Part shown: positions 8,627-64,000 of the stretch, one piece after another
Position numbering within the stretch: the stretch's first letter is position 1
Layout: the number at the start of each line of letters is the position of its first letter
From: Chloranthus sessilifolius
Lineage: Eukaryota > Streptophyta > Magnoliopsida > Chloranthales > Chloranthaceae
Assembly (NCBI GenBank): GCA_021018995.1
Contig: CM037590.1
Span: 39,806,287-39,870,286 of the forward strand
Length of the DNA stretch: 64,000 nucleotides
Reading direction: 5' to 3'
Position numbers and translations under genes: made by a program
The notes under the pieces: model-generated
What the model was told of the DNA's origin: nothing
What the model saw: the letters and a program-made list of their open reading frames with translations, nothing else
The model's database searches: none

Positions 8627-8718
<92 letters not shown>

Positions 8719-8973
8719 CAAAATCTCGAAATCAATGAATAAGCTCGTAGCTTTATTCGAAGTACTTACAACGTCGTCGAGTTCAATTCCAAAGTCGAAA
8801 CAGAGTTCTTCGAACTCTTCTTGAGCTGAAATTGATATCAATTTAAGCGAGTGAATAAGTCTACATGAATCCAAAACCCTAAAGTTTATAAATTTAAAAA
8901 AATATATATGCTTACTGTAAGTTTTTCCTAGGGCATCAAAGAGGCGATCTCTCCCGACGCTTACTGTAGGCAT
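879..8973 (-). CDS. Phenylalanine--tRNA ligase beta subunit, cytosolic (5' part, exons 1-5; continues past left edge)
   Basis: Beta subunit of cytosolic PheRS, which with alpha charges tRNA-Phe. Five minus-strand exons join in phase: 8973-8916 ([22 protein letters not shown]), 8825-8770 ([19 protein letters not shown]), 7141-7041 ([15 protein letters not shown], ending PAN), 1254-1125 ([16 protein letters not shown], ending VKPE) and 994-879 ([14 protein letters not shown], ending LHQNIC). All borders are GT/AG, and the codon splits agree (A|CT, AG|A, CG|...). This is the start of the eukaryotic beta subunit, about 154 of roughly 590-600 residues; the remaining exons lie left of position 1. 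Lengths 58, 56, 101, 130 and 116 nt keep one frame with no stop, so the gene looks intact here. Intron 2 carries a (TA)n tract and intron 4 (1255-7040) a Ty3-like relic. The exon 3 acceptor is pyrimidine-poor. The match is by recall of the family, without alignment. Confidence 0.93.
1300..2390. other. Intronic sequence of PheRS beta without recognisable feature
   Basis: AT-rich intron 4 sequence. From about 2095 to 2330 there is a patch rich in GGCC/GGCCC (gccggctggcc, ggcccaagcccgac) like the GC-rich MITE-like patches near 9.3, 49.2, 51.1, 59.7 and 60.5 kb, but no clean ends were found. Confidence 0.4.
2832..4709 (+). repeat. Internal tandem duplication in the Ty3-like relic
   Basis: A block from ttagttctcttaggttacc through gtggtggccaaattttaca occurs twice in a row (about 2835-3670 and 3680-4709), nearly identical. 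Inside each copy a ~115-bp segment starting caatataggagatctgc is itself repeated (about 3190 and 3330; 4085 and 4225). The second copy also repeats a stretch around 4440-4560. The near identity says the duplications are much younger than the element. Confidence 0.8.
5830..6015 (+). repeat. Tandem repeat of ~105 bp, two units
   Basis: The stretch ctcaatttgtgtta ... gaagaaag-gtggatga occurs twice in succession (about 5830-5925 and 5930-6023) with few differences. It lies just before the right LTR-like repeat of the Ty3-like relic. Confidence 0.8.
6884..6990 (+). repeat. Tandem duplication of ~56 bp
   Basis: The stretch aaattattactcccttcct ... attaatcaaattatga is present twice head to tail. It lies in PheRS-beta intron 4 between the Ty3-like relic and exon 3. 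Confidence 0.85.
7893..8288. mobile_element. Palindromic long-TIR MITE, copy A (PheRS-beta intron 3)
   Basis: The two halves are inverted repeats of each other over more than 100 bp. The left arm begins ttgcacccaccgaatcttt; the reverse complement of the right arm begins ttgcacccgctgaatcttt. Both then run through cattgactgctttgaat and cacacaatgga-type blocks. No coding capacity. The same core (tgaatcagatg, gtgtggaagatggggacga) recurs near 31, 43.8, 44.2, 46.4, 49.0 and 62.0 kb. Long inverted arms suggest a Mutator-like or foldback MITE. The target duplication is unclear. Confidence 0.75.
8630..8716. repeat. (TA)n microsatellite, ~87 bp
   Basis: Uninterrupted TA dinucleotides in PheRS-beta intron 2, about 50 bp downstream of exon 2 on the minus strand. 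Confidence 0.98.
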
Positions 8974-24162: not shown

Positions 24163-24230
<68 letters not shown>

Positions 24231-36385: not shown

Positions 36386-36417
36386 GATAAATGGGTTGAT
36401 CCATTGATGGTTAATTA

Positions 36418-36421
<4 letters not shown>

Positions 36422-36479
<58 letters not shown>
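36422..36479. repeat. (AT)n microsatellite
   Basis: AT dinucleotides in the transposase-leader-derived part of the hAT derivative. Confidence 0.97.
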
Positions 36480-36481
<2 letters not shown>

Positions 36482-38183: not shown

Positions 38184-41100
38184 AATTGGTATTAGAGCCA
38201 TTAGGTTTCTGTTCTATGATCGGAGATGGCATTGAAGTCCGCAAAAGTTTTGAATGCGAGGTTTGAGAAATTCGATGGGAAGATTAATTTTGGCCTGTGG
38301 CAAGTACAAGTCCGAGATATCTTGATTCAACAAGGGTTGTACAAGGCATTGAAAGAGCTTACGGGTAAGCCGGTGGATATGTCCGATGGTGATTGGTAAG
38401 AATTCGAACTTCAAGCGTGTAGTATGATTTAGCTGTTTTAGAGAACGAGATTACATACAATGTGATGTGAGAGAACTCAGCGGCCGCACTGTGGGCCAAA
38501 TTGGAGTCTCTATATGACGAAATCCTTGATGAGTAGTCTGTATCTTAAGAAGCAACTGTACAAGTTGCACATGAAGGAAGGTACTCCTCTCAATGAACAT
38601 CTTAATGAATTCAATAGAATTATATCTAAATTATTAAATGTTGGAGAAGAGGTTGAGGATGAAGATGAAACACTATTGATTTTATCTTTCCTCCCTAATC
38701 CCTATGAGCACCTAGTTACTACACTGCTCTATGAGAATGATACTATTGAACTGGAGTTGGTTACAACGACATTGCTTTGTAACGATATAAGGAAGAAATG
38801 TTCGTATAGTGATACACAAACAAATTACTTGTTGGTTAGGGGGAGATCAGAGCACCGTAAATATGGAAGTGGTAGATCAAAGTCCAGATCTAAATTCAGA
38901 AATAAAAAGACTGTAGAATGTTACAAGTGTCACGAGAAGGGCCACATCAGAAGGCATTGCCCTCAATTACAAACTAAGAGGGACGATGCTCAGGATAAAA
39001 TGGAGAAAGGGGTCGTTGATGAGACTAGTATAGCCGAACAAGCTCTTGATGGTGATGGAAACACATTGTCAGTGATTTCTGATACATACTCACAGAATGC
39101 ATGGATACTTGATTCAGGGTACTACATGTGTCGAAATAGGGATTGGTTCACGTCTTATAAAGAGGTGGATGGTGGAACGATTTTGATGGGTAACAATATG
39201 GTATGCAAAACAGTTGAAAATGAGAGTATTAAAATAAAGATGCACAATGGGGTTGTAAGAACATTGACTGATATACGCCATGTTCTGGAACTAAAAAAGA
39301 ATTTCATATCGCTTGGTACACCAGACTCCAATGGGCTCAAGTTTGCAGCTCAAGGTGAAGTTTTGAATATGACAAAGGAATCTCTGGTTGTGATGAAAGG
39401 GAAAAAGGTTGGGAACCTCTACTTTCTATCAGGGAGTACAGTGACAGGTGGAGCAACGGTATTTATGTCAGATGATAGCAGTTTGTCATCTTCATAGCTA
39501 TGAAACATGTGCTTAGGGCACATGTCAGAAAGAGGGATGACAAAGTTTCGTAAATAAGGCTTGTTGAAAGGTGTAAAGGCTGACAAAGTTAACTTTTGTG
39601 AGCATTGTATCTTTGGAAAACAATGCAGGATTAAGTTCAATACAATGGTTCACACTACAAAAGGCACACTGGATTATATACATTCAAATGTATAGGGCCT
39701 TCAAAAGTTCCTTATAAAGGTGGTGCCAGGTACTTCATTGACGATTACTCTTAGTATATATGGATCTACATGATGAAGAGTAAGAATGGGGTATTGAAAA
39801 TCTTCAAGAGGTGAAAAATACTATTTGAAAATCAGACTGGAAGGAAGGACAAGCGGTTGAGAACCGATAATGGTGGTGAGTACACCAATGGACAGTTCCA
39901 GGAGTTCTGTGAAGAGATCGATATTGCTAGGCACTTCATAATGAGGAATACATCGCAACAAAATGAGGTAGCAGAACGTATGAATAGAACTCTACTTGAA
40001 AATGCAAGATATATGTTATCCGATCCGGGATTGGGTAGAGAGTTCTGGGCTGAGGCAGTTAGTAAGTTGTGCTATCTAGTAAACAGATCACTGTCTACGA
40101 CAATAGAGTGCAAGACTCCGATTGAGATGTGGTAAGGGAAGCCTGCGGATTACAGTACATTAAGGGTCTTTGGTTGCGCAACTTATTATCATGTCAGAGA
40201 TAGTAAAATTGACCTAAAAGCTAAGAAGGCGACTTTCTTAGAGTATGCAAATGACATGAAAGGATATAGGTTATGGTGTTCCGAGCTGAATAAGGTTGTG
40301 ATCAACAGAGATGCGACCTTGGATGAATCTATTATGCGAACTTCTAGCAAACATAGAATGAAAACTAGAGAGGTGGCGAAAGATTAGTTTGAGGTAGAGT
40401 TAGAAACTCCTACAGTTATTACATAAGAAAAAAGTGTAGAAACAGTTGAGAGAGTTAGAGCAATCCTTAGTGGGTGGAAACCCCAAAGGAATGCAAGAGA
40501 ACCATTTGGCTACGGTTACAAGGATATGGTCGCCTACGCGTTGACGTAGGATGACGATGAGCCGTCTTCATTCAAGGATACAATCAGTGGAAGAAGTGCA
40601 GGAGAATGGAAGGCTGCAATGGGTGAAGAGATGGATTCTCTTCACAAGAATAAAACTTGGGAATTGACAGAATTAGCGAAGGGTAAGAGAGCGATTGGGT
40701 GCAAGTGAGTTTTTAAGAAGAAAGAGGGTCTCTGAAAAATAGTGGTACAAGGTACAAGGTACAAGGCACGATTGGTAGCAAAGGGCTATGCGCAAAAGGA
40801 AGGCATTGATTACAATGAGGTGTTTTCATCGGTCGTGAAGCACACTTCAATCCTGGTTTTATTGTCAATTATAGCACAATTGGACTTAGAGTTGGAGCAA
40901 CTCGATGTGAAAACGATGTTTCTACATGGTGATTTGTAGGAGGAGATCTGTATGAACCAACCTGAAGGGTTCAAGTCTCTTGGAGAAGAGAGGTTAGTGT
41001 ACAAACTGAAGAAGTCCTTGTACGGGTTGAAGCAATCGCCAAGATAGTGGTATAAGAGGTTTGACATGTTCATGGTGGGCCAAAATTATATTCGAAGTGA

Positions 41101-43989: not shown

Positions 43990-44375
43990 TTCACACCAAG
44001 AGATTGCTTTCTCACCCACCTTTGAAGCAGACATGCATTGACCGCCTTTGGATTAGATTATGGAGACCATTTTTCATCTCCATCTTCCGCACAATAGATC
44101 TATAGATCGTAGGCGTATCATTAGACGGTCAATTTTTATTACATGTGGGACACATCTCTAAAACTGACCCTAAAATATGCTGTGTAATAAAAAACAGACC
44201 GTTGGATGATGTGTGTCACATGATTTGAGATCACCTTTTGGGATTCTGTGCTACGTTTAATAAAAACTGACTGTTGGATGGTAAGTCCATGATCTCTAGA
44301 TCCATTGTGTGAAAGATGGGGACGAGAAGCGATCTCTATCATCTGATTCAAAGGCCGTAAAGGCATGCCAGCTGG
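43990..44375. mobile_element. Palindromic long-TIR MITE, copy D
   Basis: Left arm gcctttggattagattatgg ... cgcacaatagatctatagat pairs with right arm ... ctagatccattgtgtgaaag ... ctgattcaaaggc. Terminal words resemble copy E (ccattatattcac against ccattatactcac). It lies in the inferred leader intron of the decarboxylase gene. Confidence 0.7.
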
Positions 44376-45384
44376 AGGTAGAGTGGAAAACAGTCTTTTT
44401 GGGTGACTAATAAATGCATATGGGTACCTTTATTTACAATGATAGTTTTGAAAAAATAATTTAGATGGGAAATATATTGGAGTGCTAGATCACGTCTGCA
44501 ACGTGGCATAGTTATTCTTTGAGTTCACCAGTCTCCTTTGGTTTAGAAAAGAAAAATGTGTACGGCGACGATTTTGAAAATATAGTTTTTTTCATTTATT
44601 TGTTTATTCTTTTCATTGGTCAAAATAGAGTTTTTTTTTTCGAAAAAAATTTCATCATGAATTTCACGCACCATTGATGATCATTTTGAATTATTTAGTT
44701 GATTGGCTTCTTGTAAATATTAATCCCTGAGAATGTTTGTGCTGGCTTTTTTCTTTAGTTTTATTTTCAGTTTACCCTAGTTTTTGTTGGTTTTAGTTGA
44801 CTTAAGGACATTTCTAAAATGTATCTGGATATATGCTGTGATAGGGTTATGGTGATAAATTGTTTATGAGCCAACACCTTTTGTATCACAAAGAGGTTCT
44901 AGTGGAGGTTAAAAATATTTGTTTTATCAAGGTACATAGGGAAGATGTTTAAACTTATAAAGCTCATAAAACTCTCAAAATTTCTGAAAAATAAGCTCTT
45001 TTCTAAGTTGGCTTTGTTACGGGCTTTCTGAGCTGCTTTGAATCCTCTCTGAAAAAAATGAGAAAAAAAGGTTTAGTGAAGAGGTTTGCTTTACACATGA
45101 AAAGTATAAAATCGTCATGTGATTTTATTGCAGTTATTCGTTCATTAGAATTTGATAATGAATTTCTTAAAAAGTTTTTCGGTGGGTATAATAAGCTTAA
45201 CGAAATAAAATGAGCCCTGTTTTTCTAAATTGTATTTTTTATTTGTCAGTCTTTCATTTATTCATGTATGGCACAAATAATTAGTGTTAAGTGTGGGTTT
45301 TCTTTAGAATGAATTTTTCTATATTAATATTTGTCTCTTATTAGGGTGTTGTTGATTTCTATATGATTTTTCAGGCAAGGCTGA

Positions 45385-45393: not shown

Positions 45394-47224
45394 TGGACGG
45401 AGAAAGCAGCGAGGAGTCTAGCAGTAGTAAGTCTATGTGCTACGAAGTTCCCCTAGGATACAGCATTGAATACGTTCGTCCTCACGGTGGTATCAAGAAG
45501 TTCAGATCTGCTGCTTACTCCAACGTAAGTTATACACTTTCATCTCTTTCTGATAGTATTAATTTTTTTTTGCAAAGTAACAGCTTTCAATTGTTTTGCT
45601 CATGAATGCAATCCAGCCACAGCTGTACAGAAGTCATAGGGGTTTATGCTGTTTGTACCTTTTTTGCTTGCCAATGTGCGAAGAATTCAGATTATATTTT
45701 GTTCTACTGGTAGCGTGTATTGTGCACCTTAAAAATTAAGTGTCACTTTGGGTTTCATTGGTTTTGAGAATGCTCTTTTTCCCCCTAAATATAAACCACT
45801 AGTAGTCATAGTGACAAATTTCGCCGAAATTCGGCAAAATTTCGTGAAATTTGCCGAAATGAGGGTGAAACGAAAATTTCATCGAAATTTCAACACTTTT
45901 CGTTAATTTTGAAATTTCGTTGTTTTTTGACGAAAATTCGGTAGTTTCTTTTTAATGTTTTTTTTAAAATTATTTTAAATATGGCAAATATCTATCTAAA
46001 CTATATGCGTATCACAAGTGATTCCTGCACCCCAATTTTCAGCTTTTTGGAAGCCAAAAATTAGCCGAAACGATAAATCCTAGACGACAAACAACCTGGC
46101 AGTGTCCACTTTTGACGTGGAGGATGGTGGAAAAGAACGCACAGTGGTAAAGCATGAGGAATCCACTATTATATAGGTGGCTGAGAGTGTTCTTTTCTTT
46201 TTTCTCACCGATGTGGGACTAAACGTAGTGAAAACGACTGCAGTTTGTCAATGGCTATCGTTTACGCACCCCTAAAAGCTGCTTTTTCACCCCACTTCTT
46301 CCACCTGGTATGTATTGATCGCCTTTGAATCAGATGGTGGAGGTCATTTTTTGTATCCTTCTTTTGCACACTGGATCTATGGATCATGGGCATACCATCT
46401 TTTGAGATGTGTGCCGCACACATCTCAAAAAGTGATGCTAAAATCATGTTTTTAGGTCACTTTTTGAGATGTGTACCATGTGTAATAAAAAACCAACCGT
46501 CTAATGGTACGCCCATGATCCATAGATCCATTGTACAGAAGATGGGGACAAAAAATGATCTCCACCATCTGATTCAAAGGCGGTCAATGCATGCCGAATG
46601 AAGGTGGCGTGAGTATAATGGTACCCTTTGTCAATTTGTCTTCTATAGTTCTATGCTTGAGCTCGGCGTCAGTGCTTGGCCACTTGGATCAATTGTTAAT
46701 TTTCAAAAAAAATATTAAATGTATTTTTATATATTTTTAATCCCTGAAAATTTTCCGAAATGTATCGAAATTAATCCGAAATGTACCGAAAGGACCCCCC
46801 ACCGAAAAATTACCGAAAACAAAATTTGTCACTGCTAGTAGTTCCATTTATGTTTATTTTTGCATGCATATAGGATTAAGCTATTGAATTCTCCCAGTTT
46901 TTTATACTGACATGCTCATTTAACTTAATTCAATATTATATTTAGTTTTTCTGGATTCGTCTGGTTCATGCTATATTTTTTTTACACAATTACACCCAAA
47001 TTTGTGTGTGTTTACTATCATCTTTTGCTCACCTAAACTAATTTTGCAGTTTTGATCTCGTAGTATTTTCAGAATTTGATTTTTCTATAACATTAATGAT
47101 ACTCTGGCTTAATATGATTGTGACTAATTTACTAAAAATGTAGTTTTCTATCGTATTTGTGTCCCCTTTGCGTAAATTCTGATCTCATATTTCACATGTG
47201 CAGTGTGCGCGGAAGCCATCCTGA
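45393..47224 (+). CDS. Conserved small upstream ORF of SAM decarboxylase (50 aa, two exons)
   Basis: Exon 1, 45393-45524 (44 codons), reads MDGESSEESSSSKSMCYEVP and later GYSIEYVRPHGGIKKFRSAA, ending YSN before a GTAAGT donor. Exon 2, 47204-47224, follows a tgtgcag acceptor and reads CVRKPS then stop. The RP-GGIKKFRSAAYSN|CVRKPS ending and the intron at that place are hallmarks of the plant SAM decarboxylase uORF peptide, which stalls ribosomes at the stop under high polyamine and represses the main ORF. The stop lies 150 bases before the main ATG. The 1679-bp intron is swollen by a 1028-bp hAT insertion (45807-46834). Confidence 0.95.
46169..46219 (-). promoter_or_regulatory. snRNA-type promoter pair (USE and TATA) inside the hAT element
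   Basis: On the minus strand GTCCCACATCG (46219-46209) fits the plant upstream sequence element of snRNA genes, and TATATAA (46175-46169) follows 33 bases later, the spacing of Pol II-type snRNA genes. No snRNA sequence was recognised downstream. It may be an orphan snRNA-gene fragment or chance. Confidence 0.4.
46280..46630. mobile_element. Palindromic long-TIR MITE, copy E (nested in the hAT element)
   Basis: Arms gcctttgaatcagatggtgg ... ctggatctatggatcatggg and the mirror ... atccatagatccattgt ... ccatctgattcaaaggc pair almost fully, with a shorter inner inverted repeat around gagatgtgtgccgcacacat. The right end reads gagtataatggtaccctt; the left terminus has lost its counterpart. Confidence 0.75.
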
Positions 47225-47374: not shown

Positions 47375-48346
47375 ATGGTCTTGCCTGCCTCTGCAATTGG
47401 ATTCGAGGGCTATGAAAAGAGGCTCGAGATATCCTTCTTTGAGCTGGCCATAGTCGCTGATCTCACTGGAAATGGTCTCTGCTCTCTCTCCAGATCCCAA
47501 ATTGATGAAATCTTAAATCTTGCTGAATGCACCATAGTCTCTTCTCTGTCAAATGATGAAGTGGACTCTTATGTTCTCTCTGAATCGAGCCTCTTCATCT
47601 TCCTATACAAGCTAATCATCAAAACATGTGGCACCACAAAACTTCTACTCGCGATACCACGCATCCTTGATCTCGCCGAAACACTGTCCCTCTCTGTAAA
47701 CACCATACGATACACACGTGGTAGCTTCACATTCCCCGGTGCCCAACCGTTTCCCCACCGCAGCTTCTCAGAAGAAATCTCAATCCTTAATACTCATTTT
47801 GGCAAGCTTGGTAGTTCTGAGGCATATATCATGGGTGGTCTTGCCGGGTCCCAAAAATGGCATGTTTATTCTGCTTGTGCTTCTGAACTGATTGATTGCC
47901 CCACATGCACTATGGAAATGTGTATGACTGGATTGGATGAAAGGCGTGCTTCTATATTCTACAAGACACAGACCAAATCAGCACTTGAGATGACCAATGC
48001 GTCTGGTATAAGAAAGATTCTACCAGGCTCTGAAATTTGCGATTTCGAGTTTGATCCTTGCGGCTACTCCATGAATTCAATTGAAGGGCCTGTGATATCT
48101 ACCATTCACGTTACTCCAGAAGATGGTTTCAGTTACGCGAGCTTTGAGACAGTCGGGTATGATGCAGTGGATATCGGGTTACTGGTCAAGAGGGCGCTTA
48201 AGTGTTTCCAACCGTCGGAGTTCTCTGTAGTGGTGCATGTGGGTGATGTCGCTAGTGAGGCATTCAATTTAGAAGAAGCAGGGTATGTCTGTTCTCAGAG
48301 GAGTTATCAGAAGTTGGGGGCGAGGTGGTGGTACTGTGGTTTATAA
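47375..48346 (+). CDS. SAMDC: S-adenosylmethionine decarboxylase proenzyme (C-terminus altered by frameshift)
   Basis: Makes decarboxylated SAM, the aminopropyl donor for spermidine and spermine, in the cytosol; a pyruvoyl enzyme that cleaves itself. The 323-residue frame is intronless, as usual in plants. Landmarks: [11 protein letters not shown] with E11 and E14, YVLSESSLF with the cleavage site E70/S71 that yields the pyruvoyl group, Cys85 in [20 protein letters not shown], a PEST-like [16 protein letters not shown], Ser232 in [10 protein letters not shown] and His245 in [15 protein letters not shown]. So all processing and catalytic residues I know are kept. The usual plant length is about 355-365. 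Here the end GARWWYCGL is out of frame: the +1 frame continues [15 protein letters not shown] ... SPKSILKRW ... FEEEE to 48440, the normal tail. One extra G in the GGGGG run at 48316-48320 would explain it. Two uORFs upstream imply polyamine control of translation. Confidence 0.95.

Positions 48347-49641: not shown

Positions 49642-49691
<50 letters not shown>
49642..49691. repeat. (TA)n microsatellite
   Basis: TA dinucleotides, about 50 bp, in featureless sequence. Confidence 0.97.
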
Positions 49692-49700
<9 letters not shown>

Positions 49701-50134
49701 GAAATAAAATAAAATTGAGGAACTATATTCGAGATTCTCTTCGATCCAATGGTTGTTTAACTGGTTGAACACGATATCCAGTTCAACCAATTGGATCTGA
49801 TTATTGCCCATGAAGTGATTCTTGTTCTAGTTGAAAGAAATTTTGATGGTGACTAATCATCTGTTTTTCGGCTGCTCTTAGCAAATATGCTGATCAATCA
49901 GGATCGTTCAATCTTTCAGTCTCCTCATTTTGAAAATTTCTGTGCTACCAATATGTAGACCTTGTTGTTGGTCACAATGACTTCAATGTTTCCGTAAGAA
50001 GTTGATTGTTCTCAGCTATGTTAGTTAAATGGCCCATTCACTTAGCAAATTATGAATTGGGTACCACAAACCTGATTCGATGCGACAAGCGAATTATCTT
50101 GTTACTATTAATGTTAAGTATTTTGTTTATAATA

Positions 50135-51599: not shown

Positions 51600-52460
51600 A
51601 CTTGGAAACAATGGACTACATTCAATAAATTTAATGCTCTAACCAGATCAGCAGTATCTTATTGAAGAAAGCAGTATTCGACTCCCTGAAGCTATAGTCA
51701 TCAGAAGCTGACATCTGAAAGTGTCTGGGAAAGTAGTGCCGGGGAGCTCACCTTCAGTTTATACCTTCAAACACGAAGATACCAACTACCTAGTTGTTTG
51801 GCAGCCTCGCTCTTCCACCTTCTCTTTGAGTAGATTGGTGAGATTGCACTAATGGTGCATGATCCGACGTTAGCATTGAGCAATGGTCATGATCTGTTTA
51901 TGAAAAGCAGCAGCAAGTTAGACCAATATTAAAACAAAAAAAAAAGTTAGATGTTAGTGACCGGACCAAGATTACTGTTTAAAATAGTTATTGGCTCACA
52001 AATAAAAAAAGGAATCCCCTGCTACGTATATCGCCACTGTTCAATGAACAATATAGAAAAATTACTATGGATCCTGTTGCATAGTAATTGCTCTTCTACC
52101 AATAAAACCTGTTAAAGATTACATAATGAAGAGCAAAAACCGAGACAACTACACAACAAATAAACTAGTCATGCAACCAAAAAAAATCTCAAATTACATT
52201 CATCTGATGCACATTAAACACAACAATCTCTTGTGTTGCTACCAGAAAACCCAACATCATACCTCATCTGATGAGAATAACACATCAATTTTCATTATTC
52301 TGCGATCAAGAAAAAAAATAACATAAGTTAACGCACGCCAAAGAAGTTCTACAAACAATAATTTTAATTTTCGCGACCAAGGAAAACAAAATTTTCCAAA
52401 TCGATAGATTTATGAGGTCTATAGGTGAAATACAATAAACAAACCTGATTTTCTTTAAGG
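51600..52460 (-). other. 3' flank of the FAR1/MULE-OTU gene, duplicated at 62.24-63.27 kb
   Basis: Words atcttattgaagaa, gtttatgaaaagcagcagca, aaacctgtta, acataatgaagagc, tgatgcacattaaacacaa and aaacctgattttctt recur in order at 62.28-63.27 kb. So the two OTU genes share about 850 bp downstream of their stops. AAAATCAG|GTTTAT-like donors just after both stops hint at a 3' UTR intron. Confidence 0.7.
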
Positions 52461-55400
52461 TCATATCATGTCTTCCGGTGTCTCACGTACTACAATCTCT
52501 AGCTCTCTCATTTTCTCCACATATATGATCCTTGGAATATATGGTGTCTGCCAATCTTCGGCAGCTGGAGCATGGTATCTGATCCAATTACAAGCGATCG
52601 GTGGTATTGGAGGGTTCTCAATCATATGTAATTGGACAAAGTGATTTCTATCGATGTAACCTATAGCGATGAGCTTATGGGTTGCAGGAGGTGGTGATCG
52701 CATAGGAAGAAACGTGAGACACTGCTCTTTTGAAATGAGTATCAATACGACATTGTAGAACGAGGCGATCAAATGACCCATGTCCGGCATAGACATCCAA
52801 AACTCGGGAGGAGCTGGAACCTCTTCATATTGTAGGCTCTTGGACAATTCACCAACCCTTTCCGGATCACCAAATATTTGGGCATAGTCAGTATTGTGTG
52901 TTTGAAGTTCATACGCTAAATCTTTTCGCACTTGACGCCAACCTTCTAATCCCATTCCCAACAATTCAGCTACTGCTCGAAATCCACAATGCCCATCTCT
53001 GACAACATCTGTAGCATCTCGGATGAAGCCAGACATAGATGCAGGGAGGCAACTGATAATCTCATGAAAGCTCATTTCTCGCTCATCTTGATTGCGTTTC
53101 TTGCCTCTCTTCGAAGGGAGCTTTTCCACACACTCAAATGTGGTAACTTCACACTTGACCATTTTGTCACATTTTTCCAATGGCTTAGTTGAACCCTTAG
53201 GTCTACCTCGTGGTTTAGTTGAAATCAATGTTTCCTTCAGTTGTGCTGCTGAAGGATCTGCAATTTCATGCAACTTTTGCTTTATTTTGGCTTTTTGAGA
53301 TGCAGTGGCCTTGCTGTATCTTGCTTTGATCATCACAAACTCTGGCATGATATCTTTATACAAGTCTATATTTGAATCTTCAACTGACATTGACAATCTA
53401 GTCCAATGCTCATGAATCATAGATTTAGGCAAAGCCACACCTTTTACGAGATAACTGACTAGTTCGTGAGCACATGGAATACCAAATGACCGTCGGATTG
53501 CATGCTGACATTTCTGTGCATCAATGATAACATCTTCGGGATTAGATTCTGCCTTTTCTTTTTGCTCATTGATCTTTGCCAATGCATGATTAGAAACAAA
53601 GCCGTAGAGTTCGCTATAGAAGTGTTCATCGTATGGGTAGTGCATCTTTATTCGATTTGCAGAAAATGAAGACTTGATGTCGGCATGTTGCTGATTAATT
53701 AGTAAATCAAAGCTTGTCCAAGCTGTAGTCAATTTTGTTGCCGACACTTGAAGATATTTTTTCAATTGGGTCTGTAAGCTCTCAACTTGACTAGTAGAAG
53801 TATTGCCAAGATGCATATGCTGATTAGTCCATGCAACCACAAAAAATTCCTTATATGGAATAAGCCATGTTTGTGAAACATAGCTAAGAACCTCGGGATA
53901 AAACGAGAAATCCTTGTTCAATTCCAAAAAAGCATCATGATAGCCTATCTCTGTAGACGAACGTGTCAATGCATGCCAATCTCTCATGAACTTCTCGAAA
54001 GTCTCCTCTTCTGCAAAATATTTCTTGCAATTTGCGACAACATCCTTCGAAATATGCTCTAGACAAAGCAAGTTCTTAGCTGAAGGAAATACTATCTGAA
54101 TTGCCTTCATTAATGCAAGCTCACGATCCGTCACCAACACTAAAGGCAGTGAACTACTATTAAAAATCGACTTAAAGCACTCCAATGCCCAAGTGTAATT
54201 TGACTCTTCCTCTGATGATAAGAACGCAAAAGCCGAAAAAAAATATTTGTCTGTTGAAGTGACCCCAATAATAGATACGAGAGGCAGATGAAATCGATTC
54301 TTCTTATTGGTGCAATCAATAAGAAACACACTTGGAAAGGCTATCGAAAGGTCGATAGAAGTCGGATGCGCAAAAAACAAATCAGTTAATCTGTTAGTCT
54401 TTTCCTCTGTGCGGTAGAAGGTGACATATCCAAGGTCGTCGAGGCATTTGAAAAGGTATTGTATTGGAGTTTTTCCATCAAGCTCTTGTAAGCGCAAGGC
54501 AGCTCGAGCATTGTAGATTGCCTTGATAGTAGTCACATTTGTAGGGTCCTTTTGCTTGAGAGTTTGTAAAACATCACGGGGTTTGATACCCACCTGAGAC
54601 ATCTCTTTCAGAAACTCTTTTTGATCTGGTTTGAGCTTCCCAGCAAAAGGGTGCTCTTCCAAGAAAAGCGATCCTCTATGATTGTGGATCCCACTAATAA
54701 CTTCAACTCTCCACTCATCTCGGCCAGCTACTTTATACCCTTTCAAAGAGAATGGACACCCACAACGTTTGGTAGTAGTACGACGCACTCTTTTATTTCT
54801 TCTATCAATTGATGCTTGGCTTTCCCGATAACCCCCTGAACGATCGCAACCAAGAAAAATCCGTGGGTAGCGACGTGAATTCACCCCATCAGATTTTTGA
54901 GTCGTTAGAACAACCCCATGCCCACGGGCGACATCGCGAGCCCATTGTAAGAGATCACTTCTCTCTTTGAAAACCTATTAATGGAGATAAACAAAACATT
55001 AGTGGTAAATGACATATCATTTTTGCTCAATCATTAATAGTCAATAATAGAGCACTATATGTCAATAAATAATAGATGAACGTTCTCATATGCTTGACAT
55101 CGATCAACAAATTTCGTGACATTCATGAAATTCCTTCATTAAGCCGAGCCCTAACACATAAAGACAAGGTGAAGATGATCGTTATGAAATCAATCTCATC
55201 AGCAAATTTTATGGACTCGTTGGGAATTCCATAGAGAGCGTTCATGTCTAATATGCTGGTGAAAATTTATGTTTTATTGACAAAGAAAAGATCAAATATA
55301 AACATTCAATTCACTCATTCAACTCATTACATTGTTGCCAATTTTAATGAGAAGATTGCATAGAGTCAAATTTATATAAATATAACAAAACAATGTCAAG

Positions 55401-55507
55401 TTGAGCCGATATACCATATCGGTTGTAAAATGCTCAGACACGTCAAACTCAAATGGTTCAGTAAAGGGTTCTAATTCTAGATCTGCATCAAATTTCTTTT
55501 TCTCCAC
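52461..55507 (-). CDS. FAR1/MULE transposase-like protein with C-terminal OTU cysteine protease domain
   Basis: Exon 55507-55415, intron 54975-55414 (GTATAT...TAG), then exon 54974-52461, joined in phase: FEFDVSEHFTTDM | VFKERSDLLQWARDVARGHG. Order: FAR1-type DNA-binding region (CGCPFSLKGYK, GIHNHRG); MULE transposase core with candidate acidic residues in VFLIDCTNK (about 54320) and LVLVTDRELALMKAI (about 54130); SWIM-like finger (KCQHAIRRSFGIPCAHEL, about 53500); AT-hook KPRGRPKGS (about 53205); OTU protease with DGHCGFRAVA (catalytic Cys, about 52990) and DRNHFVQLHM (His, about 52640). The large exon is open for 838 codons. No in-frame ATG precedes GTG at 55507; a GCAG acceptor at 55518-55520 suggests a further 5' exon. 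It is either a Mutator-like transposase that gained a deubiquitinase-type domain or a domesticated gene. The FAR1 family acts in the nucleus. No terminal inverted repeats were found. Confidence 0.88.
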
Positions 55508-55519
55508 CGTTGTTTCCCT

Positions 55520-56159
55520 GCTCCATTAACAACCTTAAAATTAAAATTAAACCAATAATTCCTGAGAACATAAATGAAACAATGCATAACTTTGAATATC
55601 CATATATATGAATTCCAGAGAAAACAATGGCAACAGAAGCATGGTTTAAAATCTCGGTTGGTAATTGGTACTGAATTAAACTGCCCACTACATTTCGGAG
55701 GTGGTACAAATCTTAAAGGGTTAACACCGCCTGGAATTACCCGTTTAGAAGTTTTTACCACTATACTAGTTATAAATGATAGCATAAGTATGATATAAGC
55801 TATGAATGGAACTGATACCAAACCGAGATTTTATACTCAGACCAGTTCCCCTACTCAGAGATTGAATAACCTTAAAGGCACACTACGGGGTATCTGAAGG
55901 GATGCATGCGTATATTCAACTGAGTAAATGGTTGGATTTGTCCATGATATGATAAGATGAAAGCCATGAGAGGGAATGTGTTAGAAGTTGGGACATGCGA
56001 ATGAGTCGTTAGAGTAAATTTTCCCTCCTAGCCCCTTTTCAAATAATGGGTAAGCTTCAATAGGCTTGGGGTAAATGCCCTAAACTGGTTCATTGATGGT
56101 TTGTCAAAGAGATGTCTAACTAAATTCGGATTGATCTGTGGCCGGATCTTATTCACATG
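55520..56159. other. Upstream of the FAR1/MULE-OTU gene; no clear exon
   Basis: An extra 5' exon and the promoter should lie here. Open frames of 60-114 codons exist on both strands but show no family signature. No GT/AG-bounded exon could be chosen. Confidence 0.35.
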
Positions 56160-56279: not shown

Positions 56280-57000
56280 GAACCACAATTTTATTATGAA
56301 GTTTAGTTTTAAATCACTGTGGAGAACCCCTAATTGTCACATCAACACGTTCACGCAATTGTCGATCAAGGCCATGAGAGCCACCAATGTAAATGATCCC
56401 TACAAGAAATTAAGATGAACATTAAGATGGACAGAAGAAAGGCATAGTGATGGGAAGTATGATGGAGGCTTTGAGTCAATCCTACAATGTGGGTATTGAT
56501 TCAAATGCTAATATTAAGAAGAGCGGATCAATCCGACGGAGAGGGTCAATTCGAATGGTATGGTTTAGAGTTCGAATTTATGGAATAGAATTTAGGTGGT
56601 TTTTTACGTTGCAAGGCTGATAAAATGAATAGCATTTCCGACAAGTTTTTCAATCGTGTAAGGCTTATAATTATGGCTTTTTGGTAATAGAGGGCTTGAA
56701 ACTCTAATGGCGCGAGTGTTGATGGTATTCTGATTGCAATACAGTACATGGAGGTGCATGGAGGTGCATGGAGGAGACAAGCAACGGTGGCGGAAGACAA
56801 TGCATAGTGAATGGAGGTTTTCTGATCACACGGAGGAGTTGGGCAATGACTGAACTCATGCCATGCATGCACGACAAAATCTAACTTTTAGGTAGGTTCT
56901 CAACCAAACGGAGGAAGACAATGCACCTTCCGGTAGGTTTTCTGATGACAAAGGTTTCCTCATCAAAGGAATGGGAGGATGATGGGGTGTGCGGTGATGA
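56280..57000. other. No recognisable gene; short local repeats
   Basis: Contains a triple ggaggtgcat at about 56750-56775 and two similar blocks (gaggaagacaatgca / ggtaggttttctgatgaca) at 56790-56840 and 56910-56960. A 108-codon minus frame at 56546-56872 has no family match. Confidence 0.4.
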
Positions 57001-61973: not shown

Positions 61974-61984
61974 ATAAAAAACTG

Positions 61985-62125
61985 ACATTCTGATAGCATG
62001 CCCATGGTCTAAAGATCCATTGTGTGCAAGATTGGGTTGAAAAACGAACTCCTTTACTTAATTCAAAGTAGTTGATGGTTTTCGGACATTGCCCACAGTA
62101 ATCCGGTAGGCGAGAATATAGCTAC
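61985..62125. mobile_element. Palindromic long-TIR MITE, copy G (half)
   Basis: One arm only: ctaaagatccattgtgtgca, agattgggttgaaaaacgaa, aattcaaagtagttgatgg, ending gagaatatagctacccttc, which matches the terminal words of copies D and E. Confidence 0.6.
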
Positions 62126-62893: not shown

Positions 62894-62946
<53 letters not shown>

Positions 62947-63268: not shown

Positions 63269-64000
63269 TCAAAGGCATATCACGTCTTCTGGTGTCTCAT
63301 GTACTGCAATCTCTGGCTCTGTCTCTTTCTCCATAGTTATAATCCTTGGAATATATGGTGTCTGCCAACCTTCAGCAACTGGAGCATGGTGTCTAATCCA
63401 ATCAGAAGCAATCGGTGGTACTGGATGATTCTCAATCATATGCAACTGGACAAAGTGATTTCTATCAATGTGACCTATGGCGATGACTTCATGGGTGTCA
63501 GGAGGTGGAGATCGCAAAGGAAGGAACGTCAGACACTGCACTTTTGAAATGTGTATCAATACAACGCTATAGAATGAGGCAATCAAATGCCCCATGTCTG
63601 GCATTGACATCCAAAAATCGGGGCCAGCTGGAACATCTTCGCATTCTAGGCTCTTGGCTAATTCACCAATCCTTTCTGAATCACCAAATATTTGGGCATA
63701 CTCGATGCTGTGTCTTCGAAGTTCACGAGCTAAATCCTTTCGCACTTGAGGCCAACCTTCTAATCCCATCCCCAACAATCCGGCTACTGCCCGAAATCCA
63801 CAATGGCCATCTTTAACAACATCTGTAGCATCTTGGATGAAGCCAGACATGGATACAGGGAGAAAACTGACAATCTCCTGAGAGCTCATCCCACGCTGAC
63901 CTCGATTGCATCTTCTGGCTCTCTTTGAAGGGAGCTTTTCTATATGCTCAAAAGCAGGAGGTTCACACTTTACTGTTCTGTCAACTTTTTCCAATTGCTT
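63269..64000 (-). CDS. Second FAR1/MULE-OTU gene, C-terminal part (continues past right edge)
   Basis: Open frame from the right edge to TGA at 63269. It holds the OTU domain: VKDGHCGFRAVAGLLGMGLE (catalytic Cys), FWMSMPDMGHLIASFYSVVL and HIDRNHFVQLHMIENHPVPP (His). It aligns without gaps to the end of the 52461-55507 protein (EKLPSKRARR against EKLPSKRGKK; ASDWIRHHAPVAEGWQTPYI against ACNWIRYHAPAAEDWQTPYI), by eye about three quarters identical. It ends VICL where the first ends MI. The FAR1 and MULE parts, if present, lie to the right. The kept catalytic residues and open frame suggest selection, or recent duplication. Confidence 0.88.
   Translation of the reverse strand, partial: KQLEKVDRTVKCEPPAFEHIEKLPSKRARRCNRGQRGMSSQEIVSFLPVSMSGFIQDATDVVKDGHCGFRAVAGLLGMGLEGWPQVRKDLARELRRHSIEYAQIFGDSERIGELAKSLECEDVPAGPDFWMSMPDMGHLIASFYSVVLIHISKVQCLTFLPLRSPPPDTHEVIAIGHIDRNHFVQLHMIENHPVPPIASDWIRHHAPVAEGWQTPYIPRIITMEKETEPEIAVHETPEDVICL

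Follow-up and report, generated by a model that had tools for sequence, protein, structure and literature searches.

The window, a 64-kb stretch of DNA (G000:C7:39806287-39870286) from a plant genome assembly of 2.17 Gb in 32 contigs, carries on its minus strand a gene that we refer to as W. Its tandem copy, which runs past the end of the window, is called T, and other loci of the same genome are given L-numbers. All of the domains of W occur in a single long exon, in the order finger, MULE transposase core, SWIM-like variant, AT-hook and OTU (Table 1). This is preceded by a short upstream exon with a GT donor at 55414, and the long exon begins, following an AG, at 54974. The upstream exon and the splice sites are common to W and T. 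A short upstream exon, ending FATDM, is present at L011, too. The upstream exon of W has no opening ATG and an in-frame TAA is found at 55528-55526, so the start codon lies in an unseen exon, or elsewhere.

A first, sequence-only reading of this DNA had all of the domains in one frame, 52461-55507. The long frame with every domain is there, but it is limited to 54974-52461 of the minus strand; the remainder, 55507-54975, is not continuous, and comprises the upstream exon and the intron. Both motifs quoted in that reading, DGHCGFRAVA and DRNHFVQLHM, are present in the 837-aa frame, and the proposed fusion of MULE and OTU appears to be real: its containment in one exon speaks against separate MULE and OTU genes. 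At a distance of 4 kb from W lies an ordinary host gene, for adenosylmethionine decarboxylase (47375-48346, plus strand; PF01536, E 4.4e-106), and the surroundings also include a fragment of a Copia-type retrotransposon gag/pol (38514-39497, plus strand; PF14223 and PF22936). Scans of the 64-kb window for tRNAs and Rfam families gave no match, and the sole NCBIfam match, to IS256, was sub-threshold.

Table 1. Positions, in window coordinates, of the parts of W and of the regions that it has in common with T
Feature	Position	Strand	Remarks
Long exon of W	52461..54974	-	837 aa plus stop
Phase-0 intron of W	54975..55414	-	440 bases, GT...AG
Upstream exon of W	55415..55525	-	open over 37 codons, the last five FTTDM; not headed by an ATG
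Putative WRKY-GCM1/FAR1-type finger	54675..54971	-	C43, C73, H97, H99; AFT above, FAR1 below cut-off
MULE transposase domain (PF10551)	54045..54329	-	contains D220 and D283 of the presumed DDE triad
Putative catalytic E398 of the DDE triad	53781..53783	-	motif-based
SWIM-like finger, variant	53466..53510	-	C489-x-H491 ... C501-x-H503
AT-hook	53193..53213	-	motif, PRGRPKG
Probable divergent OTU domain of W	52464..53060	-	D660, C663 (52986-52988), H778 (52641-52643)
Probable OTU domain of T	63278..63874	-	remainder of T past window end (G000:C7:39869562-39871982)
3' flank common to W and T	51625..52458	-	four pieces, 74-84%
5' flank common to W and T	56690..56944	-	two pieces, 74%

The N-terminal finger of W belongs to a fold class that we take to be WRKY-GCM1. 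In Pfam it scores 25.6 bits against AFT (PF08731; cut-off 21.6) and 25.1 bits against FAR1 (PF03101; cut-off 28.1). The transposase core is unambiguous (PF10551; E 3.9e-20, 72.6 bits, cut-off 27.6). D220, D283 and E398, which were assigned by motif and are presumably the DDE triad of MULE transposases, are all present, and a CxxH motif (C304/H307) occurs just inside the end of the domain. The standard SWIM finger has the form C-x-C-xn-C-x-H. This pattern is not found in W, where the finger that we name ‘SWIM-like’ reads C-x-H ... C-x-H. No Ulp1 (C48) family occurs among the Pfam matches of W and of the relatives examined. Of the domains listed from the sequence at the outset, then, the MULE core (above cut-off) and the AT-hook hold as described, the SWIM finger survives as a variant, the FAR1 assignment falls below the Pfam cut-off, and the OTU domain is without a Pfam match.

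The C-terminal domain is divergent. The catalytic Asp, Cys and His expected of an OTU protease are present in W, and yet Pfam finds no family in this domain at E<=10, PF02338 (OTU) included. PF02338 reaches one of ten members of the family to which the domain belongs, at E 0.17, and a whole-genome search with it (12 candidates) yielded eight places, none of them at the coordinates of W's OTU family. Used singly against the PDB, the OTU domain of W gave six rows, with a best E of 0.32 and VCPIP1 at 1.1. The OTU assignment comes from profiles. We assembled a profile, A1, from ten OTU domains of the family, chosen by a pattern in which the Cys motif is included; because of this choice, invariance of the Cys within A1 proves nothing. 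Searched against 177,635 PDB sequences, A1 gave nine rows at E<=5. Seven of these are OTU proteins of three kinds, namely VCPIP1 with three rows, OTUD5 with two, and a pair of entries that bear the title RNA-dependent RNA polymerase and that we take to be nairovirus OTU domains. The best rows, to VCPIP1 and to the nairovirus entries, have E-values of 0.0022 each, and the similarity falls mainly around the Cys; the other two rows are West Nile virus NS1, both at 1.7. When A1 was compared by hhalign with L071, an exon of this genome that encodes a canonical OTU, DGHC paired with DGHC over 57 columns, with a local score of 37.5, a probability of 75% and an E-value of 2.6e-5 (for one comparison). 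A second canonical OTU exon, L072, failed the motif filter and did not enter this comparison. None of 200 column-shuffled profiles scored above 24.2, and the reversed profile scored 15.2; in another of the program's modes, the probability was 8.2%. AlphaFold2 modelling of the OTU region without an alignment gave a mean pLDDT of 38.9, too low for the model to be of use, and a scan of viral contigs with the OTU alignment gave 15 pattern matches and no relative. The absence of an OTU profile match, which had been named as grounds for abandoning the OTU assignment, thus holds literally for Pfam, and is outweighed by the comparisons of A1 with the PDB and with L071. By these comparisons the C-terminal domain is probably a divergent OTU, with modest support for a homology that is more than chance.

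Whether such a domain could be catalytic can be judged in part from its residues. The Asp and His are invariant in all ten aligned A1 domains, and all six intact genes examined (W, T, L011, L042, L043 and L045; hand count) retain Asp, Cys and His. The Cys has been lost, by hand count, in 5 of 20 other mapped loci. In OTU proteases, the residue two after the catalytic His is as a rule Asp or Asn. Here it is neither, and together with the distance of the sequence from canonical OTUs this could mean that the domain is a non-catalytic module for binding ubiquitin or a partner, in a gene that acts as a transcription factor like FHY3/FAR1. We regard this as quite improbable given the conservation of the three residues. 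VCPIP1, moreover, reads HYI at the same place, albeit in a second stretch of the alignment that is insignificant.

T lies 10.8 kb from W on the same strand, and is also free of stops. The two are 84% identical in DNA and 78% in protein, and they resemble one another in non-coding DNA on both sides (Table 1). When 14 other loci were compared, with up to 1.5 kb of flank each, L003 matched these flanks over 52 bases, L015 over 32 bases, and the other twelve not at all. Since the flanks of W and T are alike and those of the other loci match over 52 bases at most, T most likely arose by duplication in place. By the NG86 method the pair has a dS of 0.448, a dN of 0.116 and an omega of 0.258 (bootstrap 0.203-0.323). 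Omega is 0.27 in the finger, 0.22 in the linker, 0.25 in the MULE domain, 0.19 in the SWIM stretch, 0.37 in the AT-hook stretch and 0.31 in the OTU. The OTU value is not below those of the MULE domain or the SWIM stretch, which indicates selection on the whole protein, transposase core included. At a dS of 0.45, neutral drift is expected to produce 18.5 stops per copy, where none is observed, and both copies stayed intact in none of 2000 runs of a neutral simulation of substitutions. Omega by itself was rejected as proof of selection by the host. Eleven pairs of decayed copies, not all of them independent, give values of 0.47-0.81, but L011 paired with the decayed L012 gives 0.30, so a low omega in a pair can be a legacy of constraint in the past. 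The argument that the host has retained W and T is based instead on their duplication in place and their intact frames.

Most relatives of W in the genome are decayed. The whole protein gave 64 rows, stop-free in two (W and T), with 56 of 3820 candidates scored. The OTU part alone gave 150 scored places of 440 candidates, and 129 of the 150 contain at least one stop (hand count). In the best 60 locus pairs compared, those formed by separate places show a DNA similarity of 79-93% over 2.6-4.8 kb, as expected of a transposon family. One could suppose from these stops, and from the fact that the first ATG of W was not found, that W is itself a pseudogene or a functionless relic. We consider this extremely improbable: two copies have remained open at a divergence at which the neutral simulation never preserved both, and their exons align whereas their introns do not. 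At L011, a single TAG ends the 827-aa frame about 14 residues short of W's end, after the catalytic His. L011 is the nearest intact copy tested besides T, at a dS of about 1.5.

Terminal inverted repeats (TIRs) were sought around W by comparing 10 kb to the left with 11.7 kb to the right, in the window and the sequence contiguous with it, and none were found. The best inverted pair there, at 72%, is a dispersed repeat (44046-44137/61977-62068), and the nearest 3 kb on each side contain no inverted pair longer than 26 bases at 81%. The same dispersed repeat is present as inverted copies, 75-88% alike, at 44032-44386 and 46290-46595, and matches again at 61977-62068. A pair at 57959-58144/61784-61970 was considered as TIRs and rejected, as both arms lie between W and T. 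It consists of two opposite copies of a repeat of ~180 bases, 70-71% alike, possibly a dispersed SINE-like element. Of the 196 pairs in a general inverted-repeat list of the window, the 25 listed are mostly AT microsatellites, and long ones occur at 8628-8722, 24164-24229, 36414-36480, 49642-49718 and 62894-62942. Within 1.5-kb flanks, L034 has one 35-base inverted pair, the 5' ends of the family lying beyond the stretch compared, and a search for target-site duplications at L012 and L013 gave only 7-base, chance-like matches. MULEs without TIRs exist (PMC13317346), and the absence of TIRs is therefore compatible with a MULE origin for W.

W might still be a mobile MULE, of the kind without TIRs, in which the OTU aids transposition, for instance by protecting the transposase or repair factors from being lost in a ubiquitin-dependent way. 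Its DDE triad and CxxH are complete, so transposition may still be possible, and this counts against domestication. The repeat family with the same domains is large, and the core of W and T is as constrained as the OTU. There is precedent, too, in the OTU domains of Ginger1 transposases and the Ulp1 domains of MULEs, which have been proposed to act in transposition (PMC2836005). We nonetheless consider continued mobility unlikely. W has no TIRs; it is in tandem with T, with flanks in common; and there is no sign of a recent jump, given that the closest intact copy tested other than T is as distant as L011. The CxxH kept in W has been disrupted in T, by a change of H to R, and in L011, by one of C to S. 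Two of the three intact genes that bear a MULE core thus have a broken motif, versus 1 of the 19 other loci that have sequence at this site (hand counts). Finally, the OTU has been kept in intact relatives that have no MULE core at all.

These core-less relatives are of two kinds. L042, on C6, has an open frame of 801 aa, from G000:C6:111457833, with a finger, AT-hook-like repeats and an OTU. L043 and L045, a tandem pair on C7 of 494 and 504 aa, are also open and comprise a finger, a linker, an AT-hook and an OTU. Pfam finds no MULE domain in any of the three (L042 was submitted minus its first 102 residues). Their fingers score 22.4, 26.0 and 31.0 bits, respectively, against AFT, and like that of L070 they are above the AFT cut-off and below the FAR1 cut-off. 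L070 (G000:C7:50032137-50032703) is a third tandem copy by L043 and L045; its open frame of 216 aa encodes finger and linker and no OTU. L042, and with it L069, has nine AT-hook-like repeats between finger and OTU, seven of them with a GRP core, a tandem expansion inside the gene.

In a tree of ten OTU domains, with L015 on a long branch, L042 groups with the MULE-bearing L011 (98/98), and L043 with L045 (98/97). In a tree of 26 fingers, in which 15 of 23 inner branches are open, L042 falls with L011 and L012, and L043, L045 and L070 fall together (97/93). By parsimony, on these trees with unresolved forks and within one genome, the MULE core was probably lost at least twice, once toward L042 and once toward L043/L045. 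L043 and L045 have an omega of 0.379 (0.283-0.501), and the OTU is their most constrained part, at 0.219, compared with 0.351 for the finger, 0.472 for the linker and 0.99 for the AT-hook stretch. Neutral simulation left both open in none of 2000 runs. The suggestion, made from the sequence of W, that DNA binding is tethered to an OTU is strengthened in a way that it did not foresee: two lineages appear to have dropped the MULE core and the SWIM finger, and yet retain finger, AT-hook or AT-hooks, and OTU in open frames.

A transposon-borne defence against host ubiquitin control, suggested as an alternative in the sequence-only reading, is less supported for W, which has no TIRs and whose in-place tandem duplicate stayed intact. 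In a related version, the OTU would be a device of the element against silencing or degradation, like the VANC/KIU proteins of Vandal MULEs, and W a relic of it. In MULEs, Ulp1-bearing VANC (KIU) proteins bring about a loss of methylation in the element class to which they belong (PMC13317346), and the OTU region turns up all through the repeat family. Since W and the genes that lack MULE have remained intact and show no sign of amplification, we view this version as rather improbable.

The reading that we prefer, and hold at about even confidence, is that W is a domesticated MULE gene whose retained work is that of a DNA-addressed OTU protease at chromatin. The ancestor would have been a MULE transposase with an OTU protease domain already present at its C-terminus, in a gene then retained by the host and no longer transposing. 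The W protein would enter the nucleus and bind DNA by means of its WRKY-GCM1/FAR1-type finger and its AT-hook. There, the OTU would strip ubiquitin from the proteins present, such as histones, transcription factors or DNA-bound repair proteins, and W would in this way be a deubiquitinase with its own DNA address. A broader proposition, which we put forward tentatively as somewhat less than an even bet, is that MULEs with an OTU seeded a series of host genes, in which the core was lost at least twice while finger, AT-hooks and OTU were kept, giving rise to chromatin deubiquitinases that consist of one protein and do without a recruiting factor. The core-less relatives may hint that such genes turned into enzymes capable of locating themselves on DNA. 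If W is such a protein, domestication of MULEs would extend from transcription factors to enzymes, the enzyme having been brought by the transposon itself.

Database entries with the FAR1-MULE-OTU architecture exist in other plants. Among the literature matches listed, mostly from outside subscription journals, no description of a FAR1-MULE-OTU gene was present, and the texts listed that name both sets of terms, when searched inside, mention them apart. The main texts of a survey of FAR1 genes in 80 species (PMC8599713) and of a survey of MULEs (PMC6446971) contain no word beginning ‘OTU’. The known systems closest to W include the FHY3/FAR1 (FRS) proteins, transcription factors derived from transposases, which likewise combine a WRKY-GCM1-type finger, a MULE core and a SWIM-like finger in single genes without terminal repeats (PMC2528002). 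W differs in its additional AT-hook and C-terminal OTU, and in a FAR1 Pfam score below the cut-off. Ulp1-bearing MULEs (Kaonashi/KIU) resemble W in combining a MULE with a cysteine protease that belongs to the ubiquitin/SUMO system (PMC13317346 and PMC2528002). In W, by contrast, the protease is an OTU rather than an Ulp1, and a single exon encodes it together with the transposase; the element of KIU is described as having three genes, of which KIU is one. W's family, furthermore, includes open copies without the transposase core.

Ulp1 in MULEs has been published already (PMC2836005, PMC13317346 and PMC2528002). PMC2836005 also describes Ginger1 transposases that end in an OTU or Ulp1 domain, and Helitrons with an OTU, and suggests a role for these domains in transposition. 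These are like W in that a transposase or Helitron protein carries an OTU, C-terminal in the case of Ginger1. The core of Ginger1 is nevertheless a Gypsy-integrase-like DDE domain, and Ginger1 occurs in the animals that PMC2836005 lists, whereas W has a MULE core and a FAR1-type finger.

Among OTU proteins, VCPIP1 and the nairovirus domains, the best PDB rows for A1, resemble W mainly in the Cys region, and have no transposase parts. OTLD1 and other plant OTU histone deubiquitinases are of the same class, with an action at chromatin like that proposed for W. OTLD1 has no intrinsic DNA binding and acts with partners such as LSH10, and target recognition by most of the known plant histone deubiquitinases is stated to be unknown (PMC9845307). 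W differs in carrying putative DNA-binding parts of its own. With these and the OTU predicted in one chain, it would make the targeting of a deubiquitinase testable with one gene.
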